Source: a virus
Reading direction: 5' to 3' (one strand)
IMG/VR virus record: IMGVR_UViG_3300042559_001106
Coordinates: 1-48,135 of that record
Length of the DNA stretch: 48,135 bases
Shown here: piece by piece, positions 1,684-47,615 of the stretch
Position numbering within the stretch: the stretch's first letter is position 1
Layout: the number at the start of each line of letters is the position of its first letter
The notes under the pieces: model-generated
The model's input: only the letters and a program-made list of their open reading frames with translations
Database searches by the model: none
Told to the model about the DNA's origin: nothing
Program-made: the position numbers and the translations under genes

Positions 1684-2159
1684 GGCAGACGCTCCCCGTC
1701 GCGCGCTTCAATCCAGAACGCGCCGCCCGACTGCCACGACGTGGCGACGTAATCGAACGAGTGCTTACCGTCGTCAATCCGATAGATAGGCCAAACGCCA
1801 TGCGTGTAACCGCTGCGGCAGTCGAGGTGAAACCCGACAAGTCGCGCACTAAGGCGCCGCCCTTGGTCGCGCAATACGCCAAGGTCTCGCGCGCCGAATT
1901 GCTGCGCGTGTTTCGTGTTTCGCCGGCTGCCGTCTTTCTTGAACGCGATCGAGCGAAGCCACGCGATGCCCTTGGCGCGCTGTGATTCACTCACGGAAGG
2001 GTGATGCTTCTCGACCGCGTGAACGACATCCCACGCGGCATGATTAGAGCCCGCGTTAAAGAGCGCTTTCAGCCGCTTGCGCATGAAGCGGATGATTGCT
2101 TCGTCAAGCGTACCGGAGTCGATGCGGGCCAGTGTTGTTCTGTTCCAGTTCGTTTTCAT
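1680..2159 (-). CDS. Hypothetical protein (159 aa)
   Basis: The start codon overlaps the stop of the upstream 2159-2944 gene, which fits translational coupling. The N-terminal half is helical and basic (IIRFMRKRLKALFNAG, KGIAWLRSIAFKK). The C-terminal half is probably beta-rich (GVWPIYRIDDGKHSFDYV, GGAFWIEARDGERLP). I see no catalytic motif and do not recognise the family. Confidence 0.65.
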   Translation of the reverse strand: MKTNWNRTTLARIDSGTLDEAIIRFMRKRLKALFNAGSNHAAWDVVHAVEKHHPSVSESQRAKGIAWLRSIAFKKDGSRRNTKHAQQFGARDLGVLRDQGRRLSARLVGFHLDCRSGYTHGVWPIYRIDDGKHSFDYVATSWQSGGAFWIEARDGERLP

Positions 2160-2944
2160 TACATGCCCTCAAAAAGTTCGCGTAGCTCGCCCATTCGCTT
2201 TTCGCCGAACGCGGCGCGGAGTTTCAAGCCGGTTTCAAGGCAAGCGCGATACGTCGCCTCCGCGCTCCGGCTGTCTTTGTCGTATCCGGTTTCATCGGCC
2301 CAATCCTCAAAAGTTGCGCAGTCAATCGCGGCGCCGTCAGAAATAAGGCACGCGAGAACATCCGCAACGCTAGGCGCTTCGATCTTGTTTGCGTCTAGCG
2401 TAGTCATGCACGCGGATTCGCCACCCCATAGGCGGCGGCTGCTGATTTTTCCGGTTTCGCACTCGAAGGCAATACGCTTTCGCGTGGCGTATTCGTCGCG
2501 CTTGCCGTGGTTAAACAGCGTCGGGGATTTGTAGGCGGGACAGTGTCCGCTTCCCTGCATGTAATCGGTAGTCAACACTTCACGGCCGCGCAGCAGCAGG
2601 CGAACGCACCAGTTCAGCGACGGGTTTTTCTCGCCAGCGTTGCGCGACTTCGAGAACGGCACGAACGTGCATTCGAGCGTGACACCGAGAGCGGCGAGGA
2701 TGAACGCGCGATCATCGCGCAGTGGATCGAAGCGCGAACCCTCGCCGGGCATTGGTTCACCGTAGGCCGGCGCGAATTCGTACTGTAGCGCGCAGAGCGC
2801 GCCGTCTTTCACGAGTCGGTCGGTGTACGTGTTCCACGACTCACGCAACGCGGCGAGGTCGTTACCGTGAATCTCAAGCGGCGAGCCCGTGCCGCCGCCC
2901 GACTTCCAATCGGTGAAGGCTTGGGAGAGGTTGATTCTTTCCAT
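2159..2944 (-). CDS. Conserved phage protein of unknown function (261 aa)
   Basis: This is the largest gene of the left operon. The start at 2944 has GAGGAT upstream inside the shared leader element. The C-terminal part, with NWCVRLLLRGREVLTTDYM, GSGHCPAY and FEDWADETGYDKDSRSAEA, follows a pattern I have seen in hypothetical proteins of many tailed phages. A conserved acidic segment (VLACLISDGAAIDCATFEDW) precedes it. I know of no assigned function. The carboxy terminus is helical. Confidence 0.75.
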   Translation of the reverse strand: MERINLSQAFTDWKSGGGTGSPLEIHGNDLAALRESWNTYTDRLVKDGALCALQYEFAPAYGEPMPGEGSRFDPLRDDRAFILAALGVTLECTFVPFSKSRNAGEKNPSLNWCVRLLLRGREVLTTDYMQGSGHCPAYKSPTLFNHGKRDEYATRKRIAFECETGKISSRRLWGGESACMTTLDANKIEAPSVADVLACLISDGAAIDCATFEDWADETGYDKDSRSAEATYRACLETGLKLRAAFGEKRMGELRELFEGM

Positions 2945-3398: not shown

Positions 3399-3490
3399 TA
3401 GGCGATGCCGGCCGCGTTCAAGGCCCGCACGATGGGGCGCGACAACATCCAGCCAGCGGCGGCGCAAAGGGCCAAAATTGCGAGGGTCAT
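3398..3490 (-). CDS. Very small membrane peptide (30 aa)
   Basis: The start at 3490 has GGAG eight nucleotides upstream, and the TAA overlaps the next ATG (TAATG). The product, starting MTLAILALCAAAGWMLSRP, has one hydrophobic helix and a short basic tail. Size, SD and coupling on both sides make it credible as a small single-pass protein. No family recognised. Confidence 0.5.
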   Translation of the reverse strand: MTLAILALCAAAGWMLSRPIVRALNAAGIA

Positions 3491-3552
3491 GGGTGCGGCT
3501 CCGGTAGTGGCGGGGCGGATTGCCCGGCCGATGGGTGAAGATTAAATGCCAT
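3487..3552 (-). CDS. Possible 21-aa leader peptide
   Basis: A 21-codon frame (MAFNLHPSAGQSAPPLPEPHP) ends in ATGA with the start of the 30-aa gene, the same coupling used throughout this operon. It is proline-rich, has no obvious SD, and its start codon lies inside a palindrome at 3547-3567. It could be a leader peptide or chance. Confidence 0.3.
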   Translation of the reverse strand: MAFNLHPSAGQSAPPLPEPHP

Positions 3553-3567
3553 GCGCCGAACATGGCA
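3547..3567. promoter_or_regulatory. Perfect 7-bp inverted repeat (possible operator)
   Basis: TGCCATG and CATGGCA flank a 7-nt spacer. It sits at the head of the left operon, over the start of the putative leader peptide, where a repressor site or an RNA hairpin covering a start codon would act. No protein is assigned to it. Confidence 0.4.
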
Positions 3568-3817
3568 AGCCCCCTAGAAGCGATCAATTCAGCGAATGTT
3601 CAGAAATGCGACGCGCGGCACATTTCCAGGCCAGCGCCTACCGGGCGCCGCATTCTAGGTAACGCGGCCCGCGCCTAGACGATCCGCGCGGCTGCGCGCG
3701 GGTACGTATAGGGGTGCCCAGCTCAAATCTCAGTCTCACGCGAGACGGATACGCCCTCGCAGTGGCCGGTCGACCTGGCCGGCAGGGCTCGCCCTGAAAA
3801 CGGCGCGCGATACCGGC

Positions 3818-4068
3818 GTACTTCAAACGACGCGGTACTTCCACATAGCGGCCCGTTCCAAATTTTTCGCGGACTTTCGTACTTCGGAAACCTCGCTGAA
3901 CCTTCCTCGTTCGTACTTCGGCAAGTCAGCCGGGTCTTGGGAAATTCGGCCTTACTCGCAGACCTTTGCCGGATCGTTTCAACGGCGGGCGTACTTGGTC
4001 GGTGCTGCCGGGTCTTCGCGAATTCGCCGGTACTCGGAGATGTGCGCCGGGTCTAAATTTCTGAACGC
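3818..4068. repeat. Iteron-like repeat array, 39-bp period
   Basis: Four units start at 3913, 3952, 3991 and 4030, exactly 39 bp apart. Each begins GTACTYGG (TTACTCGC in the second unit) and carries GCCGGGTCT (GCCGGATCG in the second) exactly 16 nt after the unit start. More degenerate GTACTT units lie at 3818, 3835 and 3879 at irregular spacing. The two conserved blocks, about 1.5 helical turns apart, suggest a repeated protein-binding site such as replication iterons or an operator array. It lies in the only large non-coding region of the window. Confidence 0.7.
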
Positions 4069-4092
4069 AACATAAACAGGCCAAGCCACCCG

Positions 4093-4130
4093 CGTTGACA
4101 GCCGTAGAACATGGCGTCAGAGTTCAACGC
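4093..4130 (+). promoter_or_regulatory. Candidate early promoter with flanking inverted repeat
   Basis: A perfect minus-35 TTGACA (4095-4100) is followed 17 bp later by a poor minus-10 (CAGAGT, three matches). GCGTTGA (4093-4099) and TCAACGC (4124-4130) form a perfect inverted repeat around the spacer. It points to the plus-strand block beginning at 4203. The weak minus-10 would need an activator, or the true promoter may be elsewhere. Confidence 0.35.
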
Positions 4131-4202
4131 CACAGGCCGGCACTGACTGAAAACACCAAGTCGGCAGGCCGACCAACCAAATCAAGGCAGGATCAAACCG
4201 AC

Positions 4203-4511
4203 ATGACCGAAGAAACGACCAACACGATGCTGCGGGGAACTCGCCAAGGCAGCATCGCCGACCGACTGGCGGGACTGGCTCAAGGCGAAAACGTGACCTT
4301 GAGCGTGCCTCACGGTGCCGCAGCGGACAGCTTCGACGCTTGGGTGATCGCCACCAAGAAGCGGATGCACGCCAACATTGCCCCGACCATCGCCCGAGTT
4401 CGTGACCGGCACCCTTCTCGTACTTTCGAGACCGAAACTGGCGTGATGGTTTCCAGTCAGAACCGCGCTCATGTGGTGATGGTGATTACCCGCCTTGCAG
4501 ACCTCGCGTAA
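4203..4511 (+). CDS. Hypothetical early protein (102 aa)
   Basis: This is the first gene of the rightward block. The frame opens further upstream, but the start at 4203 (MTEETTNTMLRG) has AGGA about ten bases before it. The protein is basic, with helical segments and a C-terminal half rich in Arg and Thr (IARVRDRHPSRTFETETG, ending VVMVITRLADLA). It has no membrane segment or catalytic motif. Position suggests an immediate-early protein, perhaps DNA-binding, but this is only inference. Confidence 0.6.
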   Translation: MTEETTNTMLRGTRQGSIADRLAGLAQGENVTLSVPHGAAADSFDAWVIATKKRMHANIAPTIARVRDRHPSRTFETETGVMVSSQNRAHVVMVITRLADLA

Positions 4512-4547: not shown

Positions 4548-4577
4548 CATTTTGAAATCGTGAACCACCCTCCCCGA

Positions 4578-5297
4578 ATGAAAACCATCCCGCTGCCCCC
4601 GATCGAGACTCTTCGCCGAATCTTCGAGGTTCGCGAAGACGGCGTGCTTGTGTACCGCGAAGCCCGCCACCCGTACTTCAAACCGGGCGACGTGGCCGGT
4701 TCGCAAGTCCGCGAAGGCTATGTGTATGTCAGGCTCGGAGGTGTCCGTTACGGGGTGCACCGAATCGTCTTCGCGATCGCAAACGGTCGCGAACCGGAAG
4801 GCGCGATTGACCACACCAACGGCGACCCATCAGACAACCGTCCGCGCAATCTCCGCGAAGCCACAAGCGCGCAGAACAGCCACAACCGGAGCGCGAAAGC
4901 AGGGCGCTCTTTGCCGAAAGGCGTGTCGATGCACAAACGAACTGGCTCTTATCAAGTTCAGATCAGCGTAGGCAGGACATCCAAACACCTCGGCTACTTC
5001 AAAGACATCGAGCAAGCCCAACTGGCTTACGCCACCGCAGCAGAACGCTTCCACGGTGACTTCGCGCGAACGACAGAAAACCACCCCAAGGCAAACAACA
5101 TCGAAGCAGGCCGCAAAACAAAACTGGCGAGCGTGGATGGCCGAGACTACCTGTTCAAAGACCTGGCAGAGATGCTCGGCATGAAGCAGAACACCGTGTG
5201 GGCGCGCTACAAGGTGCTGCAAACTCGCGGCGAAGTGACGATGGCTGATCTGTCTCGCGCTCGCTACCAGCACACCCCGAAATCAACCAACGCTTGA
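4578..5297 (+). CDS. HNH homing endonuclease with AP2 DNA-binding domain (239 aa)
   Basis: This is a site-specific DNA nuclease of the free-standing homing type. The HNH domain lies in the first half: YGVHRIVF, then IDHTNGDPSDNRPRNLRE and NSHNR carry the metal- and DNA-contacting His and Asn residues. An AP2-type domain follows (KGVSMHKRTGSYQVQI, LGYFKDIEQAQLAYATAA). The C-terminal part (YLFKDLAEMLGMKQNTVWAR) resembles a NUMOD-type helix-turn-helix. A GTG at 4560 is an alternative start; neither has a clear SD. It sits alone between small genes, as mobile endonuclease genes do in phages. Confidence 0.9.
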   Translation: MKTIPLPPIETLRRIFEVREDGVLVYREARHPYFKPGDVAGSQVREGYVYVRLGGVRYGVHRIVFAIANGREPEGAIDHTNGDPSDNRPRNLREATSAQNSHNRSAKAGRSLPKGVSMHKRTGSYQVQISVGRTSKHLGYFKDIEQAQLAYATAAERFHGDFARTTENHPKANNIEAGRKTKLASVDGRDYLFKDLAEMLGMKQNTVWARYKVLQTRGEVTMADLSRARYQHTPKSTNA

Positions 5298-6609: not shown

Positions 6610-6930
6610 ATGCGCGCCCTCATCCTGGCCGCACTGGCGGCCTTCTCAGCCCCGCCGGCCGACGCCGCGGCCTTCTACCACACCACCGGCGCGCACTTCG
6701 CCTGCGAGCGCCGCAACGACATGGAGACCTTGTTCGCTCTCGCCGACGACCAAGCCAAGTTCCGCGAGACCATCGCGCGGCTCCACCGCACCGGGTTCTG
6801 CGTGCGGCTGGAAGAGGGCACGCCGGCGGTGCTGCACCAGGTCGACGGCATCTACATCGAGGTGCAGATCAGCGCCGACCCGCGGCCCCTGTGGGCGCTG
6901 CGGAACGCGATCGACTGGAGCGCCCGATGA
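6610..6930 (+). CDS. Putative secreted protein with signal peptide (106 aa)
   Basis: The N-terminus has a classic signal sequence: MRALILAALAAFSAPP with an ADAAA cleavage region near residue 20. The mature part has two cysteines (FACERR, GFCVRL) that could form a disulphide, and a compact alpha/beta pattern. A periplasmic location is predicted, which is unusual for an early phage gene and suggests action on the host envelope. Unknown function. It starts 4 nt after the upstream stop. Confidence 0.65.
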   Translation: MRALILAALAAFSAPPADAAAFYHTTGAHFACERRNDMETLFALADDQAKFRETIARLHRTGFCVRLEEGTPAVLHQVDGIYIEVQISADPRPLWALRNAIDWSAR

Positions 6931-7127: not shown

Positions 7128-7156
7128 TTCACGTCGCATTCACGATACAACAATTA

Positions 7157-7186
7157 GTGTCGTCAACACCAACCAGTTGACGGCAC
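7157..7186. promoter_or_regulatory. 11-bp inverted repeat just upstream of a start codon
   Basis: GTGTCGTCAAC and GTTGACGGCAC pair at 10 of 11 positions around an 8-nt spacer, in the only gap (7128-7190) in this part of the block. The ATG at 7191 lies 4 nt after the second arm and no SD is visible. As DNA it could be an operator; as RNA it would place a hairpin against the start codon. Confidence 0.55.
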
Positions 7187-7190
7187 TACA

Positions 7191-7400
7191 ATGAACCACA
7201 TCAAAGAAGTCAGACAAATCGCCGAGTCCGTGGGACTGACGGTTATCTCGGTCGAGCAGAACGGCCACATCAAGATGGTCTGTGAGACGGTTGAAGGTCG
7301 GCGCTTCGCCTACTTCACCAGCTACAGCCCCGGCGACAACCGGGCCAACAAGAATCTGCGCGCCGATCTGCGGCGCTATGCGATGGGGGTAAAGAAGTGA
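7191..7400 (+). CDS. Small basic protein, faintly HicA-like (69 aa)
   Basis: The pattern of an N-terminal helix (IKEVRQIAESVGL), three strands (TVISVEQNGHIKMVCET, RRFAYFTSY) and a C-terminal KNLRADLRRYA helix recalls the small dsRBD-like fold of HicA proteins. The catalytic GxxH of HicA is at best replaced by QNGHIK, and no HicB partner follows. It is preceded by an inverted repeat and lacks an SD. The resemblance is weak and function unknown. Confidence 0.6.
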   Translation: MNHIKEVRQIAESVGLTVISVEQNGHIKMVCETVEGRRFAYFTSYSPGDNRANKNLRADLRRYAMGVKK

Positions 7401-7717
7401 GCAACGAACCCGTGATCGGAAAGATCGACGAGTTGAAGTTCGTCGAAGCCACCGACTACTCGCCGGGGCCTGTGACGCTCGAAGAGTTCAACGCCATGGA
7501 GACCAAGCTCTACAACGCGCTGATCGCCTTCCGTTACAAAGGGGCGACCGCCAACGCGATCGTCCTCTCGAATCGCCAGTGGTGCGCGCTTCGGAAGTTC
7601 AGCGGGCGTGAGCACATCTACCCGACCGGGAACCCCAACTTCCGCGGCGTCAAGATCATCGTCGACGGCCGCGGCGACCACCCCAACACGCCGCTCGTCG
7701 GCCTCATCGAGTTCTGA
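7397..7717 (+). CDS. Hypothetical protein (106 aa, GTG start)
   Basis: GTG at 7397 overlaps the preceding TGA. The protein carries EEFNAMETKLYNALIAF, then a beta-rich region with NAIVLSNRQWCALRKF and GVKIIVDG. I see no membrane segment. The last part (RGVKIIVDGRGDHPNTPLVG) resembles small phage capsid-associated folds, but nothing is certain. Confidence 0.6.
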   Translation: MSNEPVIGKIDELKFVEATDYSPGPVTLEEFNAMETKLYNALIAFRYKGATANAIVLSNRQWCALRKFSGREHIYPTGNPNFRGVKIIVDGRGDHPNTPLVGLIEF

Positions 7718-8536: not shown

Positions 8537-8748
8537 GCACCGACAACCTCGAACCGATCCGGCGCGTGTTCCGTATCGCCGGCCTGTACAACCTCGCCGC
8601 CGATGATCTGCTGTGCGAGCAGCTGGCGGCGGCGGCGGTGCAGCCGCAGCCGTACCACTGGGACGGCGTAAACCCGCCCGCGCCGATTGCCCCGCAGCCG
8701 CAGGCCCCAGTCGGCACGTTCGTTCGCAGTGGAGACCATGTGCCGTGA
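8533..8748 (+). CDS. Pro/Gln-rich hypothetical protein (71 aa, GTG start)
   Basis: GTG overlaps the preceding TGA. An N-terminal helical part (NLEPIRRVFRIAGLYNLAADD) leads into a disordered Pro/Gln stretch (VQPQPY, PPAPIAPQPQAPVG). The N-terminal part may be a folded interaction module. Not recognised. Confidence 0.55.
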   Translation: MSTDNLEPIRRVFRIAGLYNLAADDLLCEQLAAAAVQPQPYHWDGVNPPAPIAPQPQAPVGTFVRSGDHVP

Positions 8749-9203
8749 GGCCGTACCGCCTCTGGACAACGCGCGAGGTGCAGCAAATCCGAACGCTGGG
8801 GCGCCACATGGAAGCGAAGGAGATCGCGAAGAAGATCGGGCGCAGCGTTAAGGCCGTTGGCTCGATGTGCGAGCGCCACGGAATCAAGCTACGCGAACTG
8901 CGCGCGTGGACGGAGGAAGAGGGCGAGGTGCTGCGCCAGAACGGAAGCAAGCTGACGTGCGCTAGGATCGGCAAGCTGGTGAAGCGATCGGCTCGCGCCG
9001 TCGCAGAGCGAGCCAAGGAACTCGGTATCGATTTGCAGAAGCGCGGACACCGGCACCACAGTGCTACGCACCCGCTCCGAGTGCGAAAGAAGTACGCCAA
9101 GCTGCGGGCAAGCGGCATGGCGCAAGCCACCGCGGCAAGGGCGGTAGGCGTCCACCAGGCAACCGCTCGCCGGTGGGAACCCAAGAAGAGCGGAACCAAC
9201 TGA
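8745..9203 (+). CDS. Putative DNA-binding regulator with three HTH units (152 aa)
   Basis: GTG at 8745 overlaps the preceding TGA. Two successive Myb/SANT-like units are visible: WTTREVQQIRTLGRHMEAKE with IAKKIGRSVKAVGSMCERHG, then WTEEEGEVLRQNGSKLTCAR with IGKLVKRSARAVAERAKELG. A third HTH of the resolvase/transposase-recognition kind follows (KLRASGMAQATAARAVGVHQ, ATARRW). The protein is very basic. Such tandem HTH proteins bind DNA, so it is the strongest candidate in the window for a transcription or origin regulator, possibly of the 3818-4068 repeats. That link is inference. Confidence 0.8.
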   Translation: MRPYRLWTTREVQQIRTLGRHMEAKEIAKKIGRSVKAVGSMCERHGIKLRELRAWTEEEGEVLRQNGSKLTCARIGKLVKRSARAVAERAKELGIDLQKRGHRHHSATHPLRVRKKYAKLRASGMAQATAARAVGVHQATARRWEPKKSGTN

Positions 9204-12593: not shown

Positions 12594-12913
12594 CATTCAG
12601 CGGGTTTGCACTCGTGCGCCGCCGGATCACCGCCGGTGGCCCACACGACGAGCCGGTCGATCTGGCACTCGTACCCGTCGATCACCACGTTCAACTCAGC
12701 CGCGTGCATCGGCAGTTCGCCCCACGGGCGCGCGGCCTGGTACGCGGGCCGGGCCTGCTTCGACAGCAGCGCCGCCGGCGGCGTCTCGCGCACCACCTTC
12801 ACCTCCGGCGGCGGGGGCTTGACCTCCCCACGGGAAGAGCAAGAAATCAACAGCGGGAGGGACAGTGCGAAGAGCGCAAGCGAGATCGGCGCCTTCAAGT
12901 TGGTTGAGAGCAT
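12593..12913 (-). CDS. Rz1: o-spanin Rz1-like outer-membrane lipoprotein (106 aa)
   Basis: It has a short signal sequence (LALFALSLPLLISCSSR) with a lipobox Cys, then a proline-rich stretch (VKPPPPEVKVV), the hallmark of Rz1. The gene begins inside the Rz gene in another frame and extends beyond its end. The start at 12913 follows GAGGAAG. With Rz it should bridge inner and outer membranes for the final step of lysis in a Gram-negative host. The tail after residue 50, with two Cys, is longer than in lambda Rz1. Confidence 0.85.
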   Translation of the reverse strand: MLSTNLKAPISLALFALSLPLLISCSSRGEVKPPPPEVKVVRETPPAALLSKQARPAYQAARPWGELPMHAAELNVVIDGYECQIDRLVVWATGGDPAAHECKPAE

Positions 12914-13250
12914 CACGGTACTTCCTCTTCTGGATGTTGAGTGCAGCCTGCGCCGCGGCGAGTTCAGCGTCGCGCTTGGCGACCAGTGCGGCGTCCTTCT
13001 TCGCGCGTTCCTCAGAGTCGGCCAGCATCTTTGCCGCAGCCGCCAGCCTGGCGTCCTTGTCGGCGATGGTCTGGTCGCGCTCGGCGATCACCGCGTTGAG
13101 CGCCACGACTTGAGCCGCATCTTCGCCGGCCTTCTTCGTGAACGCCTGCCACTCTTTGATCTCGCCGTAGACGTAGTAGCCCGTGGCGGCGATGCCGAGC
13201 ATCACCAGAGCTTCGAGCCAGTACCGCTTGAGGAATGCGAGAAAGATCAT
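12696..13250 (-). CDS. Rz: i-spanin Rz-like protein (184 aa)
   Basis: An N-terminal transmembrane helix (ALVMLGIAATGYYVYG) is followed by a long periplasmic coiled coil rich in Ala, Lys and Glu (VIAERDQTIADKDARLAAAA and on to about residue 118). The last 45 residues are Gly/Ala/Arg/Pro-rich and overlap the Rz1 coding frame, so their composition probably reflects that constraint. The ATG overlaps the preceding stop. Type II membrane topology is as expected for an i-spanin. Confidence 0.85.
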   Translation of the reverse strand: MIFLAFLKRYWLEALVMLGIAATGYYVYGEIKEWQAFTKKAGEDAAQVVALNAVIAERDQTIADKDARLAAAAKMLADSEERAKKDAALVAKRDAELAAAQAALNIQKRKYRDALNQLEGADLACALRTVPPAVDFLLFPWGGQAPAAGGEGGARDAAGGAAVEAGPARVPGRAPVGRTADARG

Positions 13251-38981: not shown

Positions 38982-39707
38982 AGGCATCTCGATCTGGTTG
39001 TGCTTACGACGGTTGGTGGAGCGCGGGATGACTTGAAGATTCCAAGGCACATGCAAGCCGCTCACCGTTGCGCCGCGAAGAGGGACGATGTGGTCGACCT
39101 CGTGCGGAACTCCCGTAGTAGCAGAGACCACTTGGGCGTGAGAATACACATCCCGCATCTCTTTGCGATCCCCTCGCGTCAACCAGTGTGGGGCGGCTCG
39201 ATACTTTGCGGCACGCCGGAGATTAGTTTTCTCGTTGCACTTTTCTTTGTTGTTTGCAGCCCAAACAGAGCCTCGTTTTCGTGCAGCCGCTAAATACGAC
39301 GGGTCGTTCTTCAACTTTGAATGGTATTTAGCTTTGTCGTTTTCCCTGCGCTTTGCTTTGTAGTCTTCCGATTTCCTTAGTTTCGATAGCCTTTCCGCTT
39401 TTGATTTACGAAGACTTTCGTTGGCTGCGTAAGCCTTTCGATTTCGCTCCCTTACGTGCTCGGCGTACTCTGGATCGTTTTTCATCCTGTGGGCGTGGCG
39501 CTCAAGTGCGGCCTTGCGATGTTCTTTCAACATCTCCGGGTCTTTTGCGCGGTTCCGATCACGCAGACAGACCTGACACAAACCGGAGTTTGTGATTCGG
39601 ACAGGATTTGCGTGCCCGTTCCTGCACGGCTTGGAATCGGCGTAGTGCTTCGATCCAAAAAGACGCGCTTCCTTTTTGGAGGAAGGAATGTGGGCGGCGA
39701 GGGTCAT
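38976..39707 (-). CDS. Free-standing HNH endonuclease between terL and gpW (243 aa)
   Basis: The C-terminal HNH motif is clear: HEVDHIVPLRGATVSGLHVP (residues ~205-224) and NLQVIPRSTNRRKHN. The N-terminus has a CxNGH / CQVC zinc-knuckle-like part, and the middle is a long Lys/Arg-rich helix (RKSKAERLSKLRKSEDYKAK). The gene appears less GC-rich and more Lys-rich than its neighbours, a sign of transfer. It is coupled by ATGA on both sides and flanked by 15-bp near-identical repeats. It is probably a homing endonuclease. Confidence 0.9.
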   Translation of the reverse strand: MTLAAHIPSSKKEARLFGSKHYADSKPCRNGHANPVRITNSGLCQVCLRDRNRAKDPEMLKEHRKAALERHAHRMKNDPEYAEHVRERNRKAYAANESLRKSKAERLSKLRKSEDYKAKRRENDKAKYHSKLKNDPSYLAAARKRGSVWAANNKEKCNEKTNLRRAAKYRAAPHWLTRGDRKEMRDVYSHAQVVSATTGVPHEVDHIVPLRGATVSGLHVPWNLQVIPRSTNRRKHNQIEMPA

Positions 39708-39709
39708 GC
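39695..39709. repeat. 15-bp repeat at the terL/HNH junction
   Basis: Partner of 38967-38981 (13/15 identical). Both copies encode M-T-L-A at the start of the following protein, so HNH and gpW share an N-terminal tetrapeptide. Confidence 0.8.
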
Positions 39710-42700
39710 GAGCTTCGCGGCCAGATCGGCGAGCTTGTTATAGGAGCCCTTCTTCGGCTCGGCAACAGGCTTGTTTGCGGGGAAGAAGTGCGCGTTCTTT
39801 TCCGGTAGTTCCGCAAACGACGGCGGAGCTTCCCAATTAATTCGGTCTACCTTCTTGTGGCGCAACACGCCGAGTAAATACGTCGCCAAGTCCCACGCTT
39901 CATTTCGGGCCTTACGCGGATTCTCCCAACCTTTGTCGGTTCGCCTCTCGGCGCACATTTCCTCGTACCAGTTGTCGGGCAACCACACCGGCCACTCCAG
40001 TGAGCCGCCGTCGACGGTCGCGCGCTCGATCATGCCCGCGAGGTCGTCTTTCAGGAGGTTGACGTTGAGCAGCATCACCGGCACGTCGCCGCGCGCCGCG
40101 GCGCTGCGATCCTTCTTCTGTGCGTCGGGGAAGCTGATTCGGACGCGCGGGGCGCCGGCGTTGTTGCCTTCGCCTTTCACGAGGAAGAAGCGCGCGTGCT
40201 CGCCAGAGCCTTCGCGACGCAGCTTGCGGAAGAAGTCGTAGGCGTTGGCGGTCACGCCGTCCTTACCGCCGGAGTCGCAGGCGATGAACGCGATGCCGAG
40301 TTCGCCGCTGCCGTCCGCCAGTGGGTAGCGGCGCTCGATGATCTGCTCGCGCACCAAGTCCCAATCTTCGAGGAACGCGCCGGGCTTCACCCACAGCGCG
40401 TCGCCGTCGTCGTCGCGGCGCTTGGACTTCCTGATCTCGAAGCGGTCGATCACGCACGCCTTGAACGGCTCGCCGGCGCTGCCGGGGCCGACACCGAAGA
40501 CCTGAGCGACCCACTGGTTCTTCTGCACGTCCGCCGTCGCCACGAGGAACCGCACGCCGGCCGGGATTTGCTGCTCGGGCAATTCGGATGCGCGCTGCTT
40601 GAGTTCGTCCGGGCTGCGCAGCGACTCGGAGCCGCGCGGGTAGTACGGCTCGCCTTGATCGGTGTTGACCGTGGACTTGAGCGCCTCCTGCGAGCCCGTG
40701 CGCTCGAACTCCTGCTCGGCCAGTAGGTAGCGGCTCACGAGGTCGCTCCACTTCGCGAACGTGGCCGCCGGCCCCTTCATCCAGAAGCTCGCGATGTCGC
40801 TGCGGATCGCCGTGCCTTCGAGCACGTCGTCGCGCGTGAGCTTCTGGCCGTCCCTGATCCATCGGCCGGCGCGGTTCAGCGTGTGCTTCATGCCGGGGTC
40901 GATCAGCGCGGTGCAGTGCGGGCACATCATCTTCGCGCTCTCGGCGCTCTCCATGATGTCCTTCGAGTCCACCCACTTGATGAGGTTGAAGCTCGGCTCG
41001 AACCACTCGCCGCAGTGCGGGCACTTCCAGTACCAGCGGCGACGGTCGCCGCGGTTGTAGAGCGCGAGGATGCCGGGGCAGGGCGGCGCTTCGTGCGGCG
41101 TGCGGCGCAGCCAGCGGGGGTCTTCGACGGTGTGGCCCGGCGACGACTCGGCGATCGTGCAGGCCGCGGTGCCGAAGGTCGTGGTGCGCTTGCGCGCCAA
41201 GTCGAAGGGCGAGCCTTCGCCGTCCACGTCCATCGGCATACGGTCGTAGTCGGTGAGAATGACGCGGCCCACCGGACGGCCTGAGAGTTCGTTGATCGTC
41301 GGCCACGAGAGCGTGAGAATCATCCCCGACAGGTAGAACTTGTCGAACGTGTTGTCGCTGTCGCCGCCGGGCATCATGCGCTTGCCGACTTCCGCCGAGT
41401 GGCGGTGCAGGCGGTCGATTCGGCGGCGCGAGAAGTCGCGCGCCATCGTCTGCGAGGTCTGGTAGACCAGCATGTCCATCGGATCGCACACGACCGAATA
41501 GACGATCGGGTTCACGATGAGCGCGTCAGTGTTGTGCGTCGGCACCATGCTCCGCGTGCAGAGGAACAAATGATCGGCGTTGTCGACTTGGATGCACCGA
41601 ACGGGAACACTGGCGACCGGCTTGACCGAAACGATCATGCGGCGCTCAGTGTAGGTCGGGCGCGACTTGGCTCGATCCCGCTGCCTAGCGCGCTTGCGCG
41701 CTAGGTTGAACACCGGCGTGTCGGAATAGGCAAAGAACGTGATCGTCTTCGCGGGCTTGCCGTCGACCAAAACGCCTTTGTGCCGTGTCTTAGGCGCCTT
41801 GTCGATGGTGCGGTACTTGAACCCGAGAGAAGCCAACAACTCGCAGATACCGTCTGCTAGTTCTGGCGAGGTCGTCGTGAACGAGCAGGCACCGTTCTTC
41901 CCGCAAGTGCCGTCCGTGTCCATCAAGCCGCGGAGCAACTGCAAACGCTGGCCTTGGCTCGCGCGAAGGTAAGTGGCTGGAATGTGCTTCCGGCCACCCG
42001 ATCCTTTGTGCAGCCCGAGATCGCGCAGGCGATCGCAGAATGCGTTGTGCTGGTCTACGAGAAGAACACCGAGGCGCTTCTCGTCCATCTCTACTTCGAC
42101 AAAATGGCCCTCTGCACGAATGTGATTGGCGGTTTCAAGAACATCGTCGAGAGCGCCGTAGATTCGGCACGTCCGCGAGTGCCCGTCTCCGAGCCAACTA
42201 CCCAAGGTGTAGGGGCCAATCGGAAGTGGAGCCGCAGGCAACTCAATCGGCTTTGTGTTCCGAACGGCGAAGGTGGAGCGGTTTGATTTGCCGAAACGAT
42301 GCTTCGGCTCGATCTCGCCGGTGGTCATCACTTTCGACCAACCGTTCTGCGACTCGACCAGCCACTTGTGGTCGCGATCCGCGATCACTTTGGTGCCGTC
42401 ATCGAACTCGACCTCGAAGCAATCGTGGTCGAGCATCACTTCCGTAGCAAAGACGACGCGGCAAGGCTTCCCGTCCGCACCGATGAGTTCGTCACCAACG
42501 CGAACGTCGCCCATGCTTGTCCAGCCGCTCGGCGTCGGGAGCGGCGTATCGAGCGCCAGTGCCTTGCCGCACTGTGCAGGGCCGACGAAGATCACCGAGT
42601 TGAACTTGCGGTTCGTCATCTCGTCGGCCGGCTCGACCATGTACGGCGTCGTGTCGTTGCGCCACGGGCCAACGTAGGAGCCGGGGTTGTTGACGTAGCG

Positions 42701-42805
42701 GTACTTCTCCGCGGCGTCGCTCACCGACAGGCGCTCCGGCGGACGCAGCACTTCCGCCAGTTCGCAGATCATCTCGCCGAGGCCCTTGTAGCTGCGCTCC
42801 ATCAC
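39704..42805 (-). CDS. terL: Terminase large subunit (GpA family) with intein in Walker A (1033 aa precursor, 689 aa spliced)
   Basis: It packages DNA using ATP and cuts genomic concatemers. Walker A reads GPAQCGK at residues 75-81 and resumes with Thr426 after the intein, giving GPAQCGKT. Walker B-like VILTDYD lies at ~515-521. Two CPHC pairs (595-598, 628-631) are typical of GpA, and a nuclease region follows with AFIACDSGGKDG (839-850). The start is GTG at 42805 or ATG at 42802, both overlapping the terS stop. Without splicing the ATPase site would be broken. Confidence 0.95.
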   Translation of the reverse strand: MMERSYKGLGEMICELAEVLRPPERLSVSDAAEKYRYVNNPGSYVGPWRNDTTPYMVEPADEMTNRKFNSVIFVGPAQCGKALALDTPLPTPSGWTSMGDVRVGDELIGADGKPCRVVFATEVMLDHDCFEVEFDDGTKVIADRDHKWLVESQNGWSKVMTTGEIEPKHRFGKSNRSTFAVRNTKPIELPAAPLPIGPYTLGSWLGDGHSRTCRIYGALDDVLETANHIRAEGHFVEVEMDEKRLGVLLVDQHNAFCDRLRDLGLHKGSGGRKHIPATYLRASQGQRLQLLRGLMDTDGTCGKNGACSFTTTSPELADGICELLASLGFKYRTIDKAPKTRHKGVLVDGKPAKTITFFAYSDTPVFNLARKRARQRDRAKSRPTYTERRMIVSVKPVASVPVRCIQVDNADHLFLCTRSMVPTHNTDALIVNPIVYSVVCDPMDMLVYQTSQTMARDFSRRRIDRLHRHSAEVGKRMMPGGDSDNTFDKFYLSGMILTLSWPTINELSGRPVGRVILTDYDRMPMDVDGEGSPFDLARKRTTTFGTAACTIAESSPGHTVEDPRWLRRTPHEAPPCPGILALYNRGDRRRWYWKCPHCGEWFEPSFNLIKWVDSKDIMESAESAKMMCPHCTALIDPGMKHTLNRAGRWIRDGQKLTRDDVLEGTAIRSDIASFWMKGPAATFAKWSDLVSRYLLAEQEFERTGSQEALKSTVNTDQGEPYYPRGSESLRSPDELKQRASELPEQQIPAGVRFLVATADVQKNQWVAQVFGVGPGSAGEPFKACVIDRFEIRKSKRRDDDGDALWVKPGAFLEDWDLVREQIIERRYPLADGSGELGIAFIACDSGGKDGVTANAYDFFRKLRREGSGEHARFFLVKGEGNNAGAPRVRISFPDAQKKDRSAAARGDVPVMLLNVNLLKDDLAGMIERATVDGGSLEWPVWLPDNWYEEMCAERRTDKGWENPRKARNEAWDLATYLLGVLRHKKVDRINWEAPPSFAELPEKNAHFFPANKPVAEPKKGSYNKLADLAAKLA
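39737..39765 (-). promoter_or_regulatory. Candidate promoter inside the terL 3' end (TTGCCG-17-TATAAC)
   Basis: TTGCCG (4/6) and TATAAC at 17-bp spacing, with GGCTCCTATAACA identical over 13 bases to the candidate at 16274. It lies 29 nt before the HNH start and is within the codons for KKGSYNK, so it could be chance or a promoter for the HNH gene. Confidence 0.45.
41531..42562 (-). mobile_element. Ala1 intein with class 3 (W-C-T) signature and LAGLIDADG domain in TerL (344 aa)
   Basis: The element begins Ala82 (ALALDTPLPTPSGW) rather than Cys, and ends PTHN (422-425) followed by Thr426 as +1. Block B has DHKW (145-148) with His146 and Trp148, block F has PVRCIQVD with Cys404, and Thr423 precedes the terminal His-Asn. 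These Trp, Cys and Thr positions form the W-C-T triplet of class 3 inteins, which use the block F Cys in place of residue 1. LGSWLGDGH (201-209) and LLRGLMDTDG (290-299) are LAGLIDADG motifs, so homing activity is likely. Confidence 0.93.
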
Positions 42806-45557: not shown

Positions 45558-47615
45558 TCACTTCTTGTAGATGAGGGAGACGTGGCCCTCGGCAGCAAGC
45601 GGAAGACCTTCTGCCCAAGAGATAGGTGACGCCATCGCTTCGCACAAGTCGTCGATCGTCAGCTTGCTGTTGTCCGGCACTTCGCACACGATTTCGTCGT
45701 GAACGTGCAGAACGATGTTGAAGCCCATCTTCTTCGCGCGCACGAGGCCGGCGGCCAGCACGTCACGTGCGATGGCTTGCACGAAGTTTTCGGTGAGCTT
45801 GCCGCCGTGCGTGTAGGTGCGGCCCCACTTCTTCGTCAACTGGTTCACGCCCTCGTAGGAGAGCGCAGGCACCTTCTTCTTTTCGACAACGACGGTGCCG
45901 TCCGCCAAGGTCTTCTGGAACTCGCGCGGCACCTCTTCGATGCGCGGGTACAGGTAGTGCAGCACGCGGCCACTCGGCAGCTTCACGCGCATCATGCCCT
46001 TGTCGCCCTTGAAGACTACCGGGCCGACGCGGATCGTGGTGCGGTCGCGCACGCAGTCGAACGCGGCGTCGCGCAGATTGGTCCAGCCCTGAACGACCTC
46101 CGGGTAGGACTCGCGGAACACGCGCACGGCGGCGTGCGCTTCCTCGCGGGTCATCTTGATACCCATTGCCTCGGCGTAACCCCACAGGCCGGTCTTCACG
46201 ATGTCGCCGTTCTCGTTCTCCTTCTCATCGCCGCCGCCGAGCATGTAGCCGCCGCCGAGCACCGCGGGCTTCGAGTTCTGGCGCTTCTTCTTCTGTTTGA
46301 GCACCTTGTACTCGTGCAGCATTTCCTCGTAGGACTGCTTGTACATGCGCGTGCCGAAGTCGAGGTACGGGCAACGGCCTTCGCGGAACACGTCAAGGAT
46401 CGGCTGGCAGTTGAACATCCAGCCGAGAACGCGGTTCTCGATCGCGTTCAAGTCGGCGGCGTAGAACTTGTAGCCGCTCGGCGCGCGGAAGGCCGAACGC
46501 ACCAAGCTCGACACGACGCGCGTGACGTTGCCGAACTCGTCCACAATCGCATCGACCTCGCGGTTGCGAACCATCTCGGTGACGCGCTCTTCCTGCCCTT
46601 CGATGTCGCCGTCCGGGCGCGGGAGGTTCTGAGGCTGCGGATCACGGCCACCCCAGCGGCCGGTGCGGCTCGCGCCGTAGAACTGGAGCATGTTGTAGAT
46701 GCGACCGCCCTGCGTCTTCTCCTTGATCGAGTCGAACTTCGCAGTCGAAGTCTTGGTCGCCAGTGAGCGCATCTTCATCGTCTCGATGATGTGCTCAGGC
46801 ACAACGCCTTCGCGGATCGCGCGCTCGACGGTGGCCTTCCGCAGATCGCCGTAGGGGTAGCCCTCGGCCTGCGCCCACTTGAGGAACGCGCTCTGCGTCT
46901 TCGGGTTGTCGAGGCCGGTGATCTGGCGCAGCTTGCGGATCAGCGCGGCCTTCTCGTTGGCTGCCATCTCAATCGCAGCCTCGACGAGTTGCATGTCGAC
47001 CGGCACGCCGCGCGTGTTGATCTCTTGGTCAAGTTCCCACAGCTTCCACTCGCTCGCCGGCGGGGCGATGCCCTTGAGCTTGCGGTAGATCGTGCGCTCG
47101 GTGTGTACGTCGCGCTCGCAATAGACGCCGAACTTCCCGAAGTCCTCTGGGTGGCTGTTCCAGTCGTTGAAGAGCGACGGGTTATCTTCCGTCACCTTGC
47201 GCGGCATGGAGAACAGGCGGATGAGCCGCTTGCCTTCGGGGTCTTTCAGGTCTTCTAGCGGAAGGCGTAATGCCGCGCCGGCGAGCGCAAGAGCACCCGG
47301 CAGCGAGGCGTAGAGTGCCAGCACCATCGTGTCGCGCCAGCCCTCGGCCTTGAGGCCTAGCGTGTGCTCGGTGATGGCGCGCTCGAAATTGGCGTTCCAA
47401 GCCCACTTCTCGACGCTAGGATCGCGCATGGCGTCACGCAGCATCGGCGGCGCTTTCGGAGACCGATGTGGGAGCCAGAGTTGCACCGGCTCGTCGTCGA
47501 TCGCCCAGCCGGCCATCAGCACGCGCGTGGTCTTGTCGCGTGCGTAGGTGTGCAGCCCGGCGGAGAGCAGATCGACGGCGCTGCGCGTTTCGTAGTCGAG
47601 GTGAAGGCGGGTCAT
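45558..47615 (-). CDS. DNA polymerase family A with 3'-5' exonuclease domain (685 aa)
   Basis: The main replicative polymerase. The N-terminal DEDD exonuclease has LDYETRS (Asp7, Glu9) and WNANFERA near residue 73. The polymerase domain shows motif A YAADLNAIENR (Asp388), a motif B region RQNSKPAVLGGGYMLG (445-460) and motif C LHVHDEI (636-642). ARTGRWGGRDPQPQN-type sequence near 320 (SRTGRWGGRDPQPQNLPR) lines the template site. No 5'-3' nuclease domain is present. Length fits phage PolA forms. Confidence 0.95.
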   Translation of the reverse strand: MTRLHLDYETRSAVDLLSAGLHTYARDKTTRVLMAGWAIDDEPVQLWLPHRSPKAPPMLRDAMRDPSVEKWAWNANFERAITEHTLGLKAEGWRDTMVLALYASLPGALALAGAALRLPLEDLKDPEGKRLIRLFSMPRKVTEDNPSLFNDWNSHPEDFGKFGVYCERDVHTERTIYRKLKGIAPPASEWKLWELDQEINTRGVPVDMQLVEAAIEMAANEKAALIRKLRQITGLDNPKTQSAFLKWAQAEGYPYGDLRKATVERAIREGVVPEHIIETMKMRSLATKTSTAKFDSIKEKTQGGRIYNMLQFYGASRTGRWGGRDPQPQNLPRPDGDIEGQEERVTEMVRNREVDAIVDEFGNVTRVVSSLVRSAFRAPSGYKFYAADLNAIENRVLGWMFNCQPILDVFREGRCPYLDFGTRMYKQSYEEMLHEYKVLKQKKKRQNSKPAVLGGGYMLGGGDEKENENGDIVKTGLWGYAEAMGIKMTREEAHAAVRVFRESYPEVVQGWTNLRDAAFDCVRDRTTIRVGPVVFKGDKGMMRVKLPSGRVLHYLYPRIEEVPREFQKTLADGTVVVEKKKVPALSYEGVNQLTKKWGRTYTHGGKLTENFVQAIARDVLAAGLVRAKKMGFNIVLHVHDEIVCEVPDNSKLTIDDLCEAMASPISWAEGLPLAAEGHVSLIYKK

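Follow-up and report, generated by a model that had tools for sequence, protein, structure and literature searches.

A directional repeat array between divergent gene blocks is a conserved, putative protein-binding element of chi-like phages

The repeat array described here lies in the window, that is, the complete 48,135-bp virus record IMGVR_UViG_3300042559_001106, which is apparently an incomplete genome, with about 10 kb missing as judged from relatives. Comparison with related phages identifies the array as the window's copy of a cis element that, on sequence grounds, is conserved across the chi-like phages (Casjensviridae and relatives). The array very probably works as DNA to which a protein binds in one set orientation. 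The best explanation that we can offer, held with a little less than even confidence, is that this conserved cis element is bound by a phage protein and belongs to an iteron-type replication origin. Phage chi is a classic flagellum-specific phage. The accessible papers on chi and its relatives describe no replication origin and no sites of early control. The family-wide consensus and orientation, the single neighbour gene and the public RNA-seq data of phage JS26, deposited under PRJNA746619 and GSE186673, make both origin function and early control directly testable in laboratory strains of Salmonella or E. coli, and the array provides an annotation landmark for the large gap in more than 100 deposited chi-like genomes.

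Its gene content marks the window as part of a chi-like siphophage genome. Its terminase is nearest to those of chi-like siphophages, with about 52% identity over the matched part, and its minus strand carries the DNA polymerase, helicase, terminase, portal, capsid and tail genes in the chi-like order. Plus-strand genes form a block between 4203 and about 13.5 kb, and to the left of 3.6 kb there is a short block on the minus strand. Between the two lies the array, in an interval that the initial annotation had rightly described as divergent and gene-free, as it holds no family-supported gene. No close DNA relative of the window was present among the phages searched, nor did the viral contigs searched with its DUF7609 and phrog_4273 proteins include one. 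The phrog_4273 protein, encoded in the left block (2159-2944, minus strand), is 51% identical to a protein of Xanthomonas phage FoX4, and the gene for its relative in Burkholderia phage AH2 is the first one to the left of the AH2 array. The terminase large subunit (39704-42805, minus strand; 1033 aa) contains extra sequence that splits the ATPase domain, together with a LAGLIDADG_3 match at residues 287-344, and therefore probably carries an intein; Acidovorax phage ACF1 gives a similarly long match across this protein.

The repeats of the array are real, and chance is excluded as their source. Within 3601-4200, the best four-unit period is 39 bp, with a z of 9.7 and a pairwise identity of 55%, and none of 300 Markov shuffles reached this value (mean z 3.6, maximum 5.9). 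Only one of 159 window tiles exceeded the periodicity of the array; this tile contains a tandem repeat of 15 bp (97-221), close to the contig's left end, with about 8 copies of CCCCGCACCACGCCA. The initial annotation had described four units at exactly 39-bp spacing, each with a second block 16 nt past the unit start, and both features are found in the units that start at 3913, 3952, 3991 and 4030 (Table 1). Its statement that degenerate GTACTT units extend the array to the left is likewise borne out at 3818, 3835 and 3879, with spacings of 17, 44 and 34 bp from each to the next unit on its right, so that the exact period is limited to the right four units. The blocks themselves are less uniform than had been proposed. 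GTACTYGG is exact in two of the four units, 3991 (GTACTTGG) and 4030 (GTACTCGG), the other two having GTACTTCG (3913) and TTACTCGC (3952), and the second block, GCCGGGTCT, is exact in three, with GCCGGATCG in its place at 3952. A scan of viral contigs for pairs of GTACTTCG returned only chance and coding-repeat matches.

Table 1. Array units and neighbouring features in the window; promoters are predictions, and scores and p values of units refer to the family weight matrix.
Feature	Position	Strand	Observations
Weak unit, GTACTTC only	3818..3842	+	box A present, box B not recognisable; score -7.6, p 7e-4; overlaps next unit
Degenerate unit GTACTTCCACATAGCG-GCCCGTTCC, then AAATTTTT	3835..3866	+	score -3.7, p 2e-4
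Array unit, top match to the family model	3879..3903	+	16.2 bits, p 1.5e-7; rank 1 window-wide
Array unit GTACTTCGGCAAGTCA-GCCGGGTCT	3913..3937	+	11.5 bits; rank 2 window-wide; first of four at 39 bp
Array unit TTACTCGCAGACCTTT-GCCGGATCG	3952..3976	+	8.6 bits; rank 3 window-wide
Array unit GTACTTGGTCGGTGCT-GCCGGGTCT	3991..4015	+	in register with 3913; score -4.5, p 3e-4
Array unit GTACTCGGAGATGTGC-GCCGGGTCT, then AAATTT	4030..4054	+	in register with 3952 and 3991; score -7.1, p 6e-4
DUF7609 / phrog_6647 gene, first gene right of the array	4203..4511	+	PF24582 E 1.6e-9; phrog_6647 E 7e-9
Predicted rightward promoter PR, TTGACA-N17-CAGAGT	4095..4123	+	spacer dyad GCC..GGC; placed as TTGACA-N17-TATTGT in relatives
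Tentative leftward promoter PL, TTGCCA-N18-TAATCT	3539..3568	-	perfect dyad GCCATG..CATGGC; by analogy with relatives

The relatives define the site to which these units belong. In chi-like phages, it is a directional, bipartite sequence of about 25 bp, approximately KTACTTSA-N4-CCTAGCCGGYT, often with an A/T tract after box B, and 3-7 copies are found in the non-coding gap between the divergent early and middle operons. Nearly all of the relatives reached via DUF7609 have 3-6 copies, such as GCTTACTTGAAAAACCTAGCAGGCTGAAAATTTT, ahead of the DUF7609 gene. In a weight matrix constructed from 52 sites of 12 phages, with the window left out, box A (CTTACTTSA) is almost invariant, the link is rich in A, and box B is close to CCTAGCCGGYTG. 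When the whole window was scanned with this matrix, units 3879, 3913 and 3952 were its top three matches, the next one scoring 4.7 bits, and their single-site p values range from 1.5e-7 to 3.8e-6. Units 3835, 3991 and 4030 are weak (2e-4 to 6e-4) and draw support from their register with the other units and their partial likeness to units of relatives, e.g., the similarity of 3835 to the Smarc1/UF_RH7 unit TTACTTCAGAGACCCAGCCCGTTCNNAAAATTTT. Unit 3818 may be a chance match. Box A varies from array to array, with GTACTT in all units of contig L181 and in most of those of JS26 and the window, and TTACTT in most others, and nearly all units of one array agree in this letter. As it also occurs in JS26 and L181, the form seen in the window matches an established state of the site. 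Units are more alike within a genome (0.75) than between genomes (0.65), a difference reached in none of 2000 permutations. Across fifteen complete records, copies of the consensus with zero mismatches occur only inside the array, which sets them apart from promoters and stoperators, both of which are scattered.

The array is present in most of the chi-like phages examined, and the conservation of its blocks, on which the initial annotation had made its reading depend, extends to the same locus and orientation in many relatives. Its carriers include Utah, SEP13, Enc34, Redjac, PatoteraRojo, XAP3, Soft, Kokobel1, BcepNazgul, Smarc1, UF_RH7, MA12, FoX4, JS26 and phiWae15, as well as several IMG/VR contigs, and ten named genera are represented (Chivirus, Enchivirus, Redjacvirus, Zhonglingvirus, Yonseivirus, Kokobelvirus, Nazgulvirus, Newforgelanevirus, Foxquatrovirus and Dunedinvirus). 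Smarc1, UF_RH7, MA12, FoX4, AH2, BcepNazgul and Carli, and Utah with some 140 further chi-like records, were reached via DUF7609. The array is not recognisable in Saba, Carli and ACF1. As Saba and Carli have kept DUF7609, which is absent from ACF1, either the site has diverged in these two phages or the link between DUF7609 and the array is loose. A spacing of 39 bp is not conserved, since units in relatives are 27-168 bp apart. Helical phasing seemed significant when redundant genomes were included and disappeared with one genome per lineage: for 61 spacings from 18 lineages, R was 0.16-0.21 at repeats of 10.0-10.7 bp (p 0.08-0.21), and at 10.5 bp it was 0.19 (p about 0.11). The proposal of iterons or a multi-site operator in a divergent control region has thus been upheld in its conserved blocks, and has lost the 39-bp spacing and the link to a helix-turn-helix protein. 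The latter protein, encoded at 8745-9203, matches phrog_323 (a D5-like regulator) and lies 4.6 kb away, and nothing links it to the array.

In nearly all relatives, the gene adjoining the array encodes a DUF7609 protein of 90-120 aa and is the first gene of one of the two divergent blocks, and the units always point toward this gene and the right operon. Being encoded beside the array, the DUF7609 product is the best-placed candidate for its binder. A PDB search with the DUF7609 profile found no credible solved relative (best E 0.02, unrelated). JS26 has two DUF7609 genes, gp15 (7132-7422), which is next to the array, and gp28 (12636-13031), which is not. The DUF7609 gene of the window is followed immediately on its 3' side by an HNH endonuclease gene (4560-5297, plus strand), which is likely a free-standing mobile gene.

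Strand-specific RNA-seq data of JS26, in which gp14, an open reading frame predicted across the array (6676-6918), has zero reads (PMC8754663), make it very probable that the array acts at the level of DNA. Oriented binding of a protein is likewise very probable because the site is conserved. We propose that one phage-encoded protein would bind each site in the same orientation and that the row of bound proteins would build a nucleoprotein complex. In the slightly favoured role, the array would be that part of the phage replication origin to which the initiator binds (the iterons), and the strands would open in adjacent DNA, aided by transcription from the flanking promoters. An origin is slightly favoured because exact copies of the site are confined to one locus, because the array stays clear of promoters that have dyads of their own, because AT-rich boxes adjoin it in several genera and because it can sit away from the promoters. 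In phiWae15, the four-unit main array is about 3 kb from the divergent point, a distance that an operator bound at a promoter would tolerate poorly; two weak units are found at the divergent point, and the DUF7609 gene is some 6 kb from the main array. Utah, Redjac, PatoteraRojo, XAP3, Soft and Kokobel1 all have the AT-rich box, CTATAWA, upstream of the first unit at a distance of 17-21 bp from box A, exactly 21 bp in several enteric phages; in the genomes checked, it seldom occurs elsewhere.

Comparison with the iteron arrays of RepE, RepA and pi plasmids and of lambda O reveals both the strengths and the weaknesses of the origin reading. Shared with these systems are several directional direct repeats of about 20-25 bp in non-coding DNA beside an early gene and, in several enteric relatives, an AT-rich box adjoining the array. 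The chi-like array differs from them in its irregular, unphased spacing of 27-168 bp, in the missing skew switch, in the window's lack of an AT-rich box, and in the absence of an identified initiator, all of which count against an origin; the product of the neighbour gene, moreover, has only 90-120 aa. Also against an origin are Saba and Carli, which have DUF7609 and no recognisable array, and the weak match of three window units (3835, 3991 and 4030) to the family model. When GC skew was computed, as the initial annotation had recommended, its sign stayed the same across the array of the window, Utah and FoX4, skew being a weak proxy in phages. In the window, FoX4 and BcepNazgul, the DNA next to the array contains no AT-rich element. 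Even with these points against it, an origin remains the slightly favoured role.

The strongest competing explanation, which we rank only slightly behind an origin, is that the array is a multi-site regulatory element. A regulator encoded by the phage, possibly DUF7609 acting on the operon to which it belongs, would occupy the sites and switch both operons, the rightward (middle) one and the leftward (early) one, from upstream of their promoters in the manner of an enhancer or silencer. This explanation is consistent with the location of the array between divergent sigma70-like promoters, with its position next to DUF7609, which in nearly all genomes opens the right operon, and with the direction of every unit toward this operon. 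It also agrees with the transcription of JS26, where RNA-seq data (PMC8754663) class gp01-13, the left block, as early and gp15-45, the right block, as middle. In many relatives, divergent promoters are predicted on both sides of the array, typically with TTGACA-N17-TATTGT next to DUF7609 and a comparable promoter opposite. In the window, PR is predicted and PL tentative, both by analogy: PR has a poor -10, CATGGC occurs at an equal offset from the -35 in both, and a generic promoter scan of 3400-4300 returned no sigma70 promoter and scored the PL dyad as a possible terminator.

The details of these promoters speak against direct control by the array. The sites overlap no predicted core promoter (-35/-10), and the distance from the start of the last unit to the -35 of PR varies between 29 and 108 bp where PR could be called (65 bp in the window) and shows no constant helical phase. 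Moreover, both promoters have their own dyads, which would be a more ordinary operator. Spacer dyads have a mean best score of 4.87, compared with 4.27 in shuffles (maximum 4.68 of 500), and probably serve a different phage regulator as its operator. Within one phage, the dyads between -35 and -10 of the two promoters are often similar in sequence. The main array of phiWae15, being distant from the divergent point, is also difficult to reconcile with a regulatory array. Phage multi-site operators and enhancer arrays resemble the chi-like array in being flanked by divergent promoters where early and middle operons meet, and the chi-like sites differ from them in lying off the core promoters, where the separate dyads are found, and in their variable distance to the promoter.

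Both functions may be combined in an origin whose binder also tunes the flanking promoters, as the Rep proteins of iteron plasmids regulate their own synthesis. Such a dual role would unite the evidence of placement for the origin and for regulation, and adjacency to the first gene of the operon is consistent with autoregulation. It also shares the gaps of both readings, and we consider it quite unlikely. A more specific version, in which the small DUF7609 protein would bind the 25-bp directional sites, start replication and time the change from early to middle expression, as an undescribed class of system in the Casjensviridae with the specificities of site and protein changing together between genera, is likewise doubtful.

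An RNA element in a leader transcript, or chance or low-complexity repeats, either of which could be argued from repetition alone, is very improbable and was rejected, as the array lies upstream of PR and outside the predicted PL transcript and gp14 of JS26 is devoid of reads, and as the periodicity exceeds that of every shuffle and the array is conserved in many genomes. The least probable alternative is a packaging site (cos or pac) or terminase recognition array, rejected despite the repeated protein-binding sites known at packaging sites, because the chi-type cos, whose ends have been mapped (PMC4342425) and which is annotated in Utah, is about 5.6 kb from the Utah array (53185-53400).

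Stoperators were also considered and rejected. Those of mycobacteriophage L5 are short and asymmetric and keep one orientation with respect to transcription, as the chi-like sites do; however, they are scattered over the genome, whereas exact chi-like copies occur at one locus only. A directional array of binding sites is therefore a known kind of element, and the chi-like family of such arrays appears to be undescribed. Within the open-licence literature, the papers on chi, AH2, Enc34, related Salmonella phages and JS26 make no mention of such repeats, and text searches of phage papers for the motif found no description, so that an earlier account may exist elsewhere.

Other repeats are found at or near this locus in individual phages. 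Adjoining the phiWae15 array, at 47030-47130, are four 30-bp direct repeats (TCTAGCACGTCAGTCCCGTGTAACAAC) with a dyad, one copy of which is also present in the Enc34 gap. In AH2, repeats of 29 bp beside DUF7609 share the locus and orientation of the chi-like array, and CTTCNGCGACCTGTCGGGCTGTCGG can be aligned without gaps to units such as CTTCAAAAACCTCGCAGGCTGTCGG. They differ in the loss of box A (TGCCCTTC), in a regular 29-bp period and in not being recognised by the family model. The AH2 repeat looks like a diverged form of the chi-like array.
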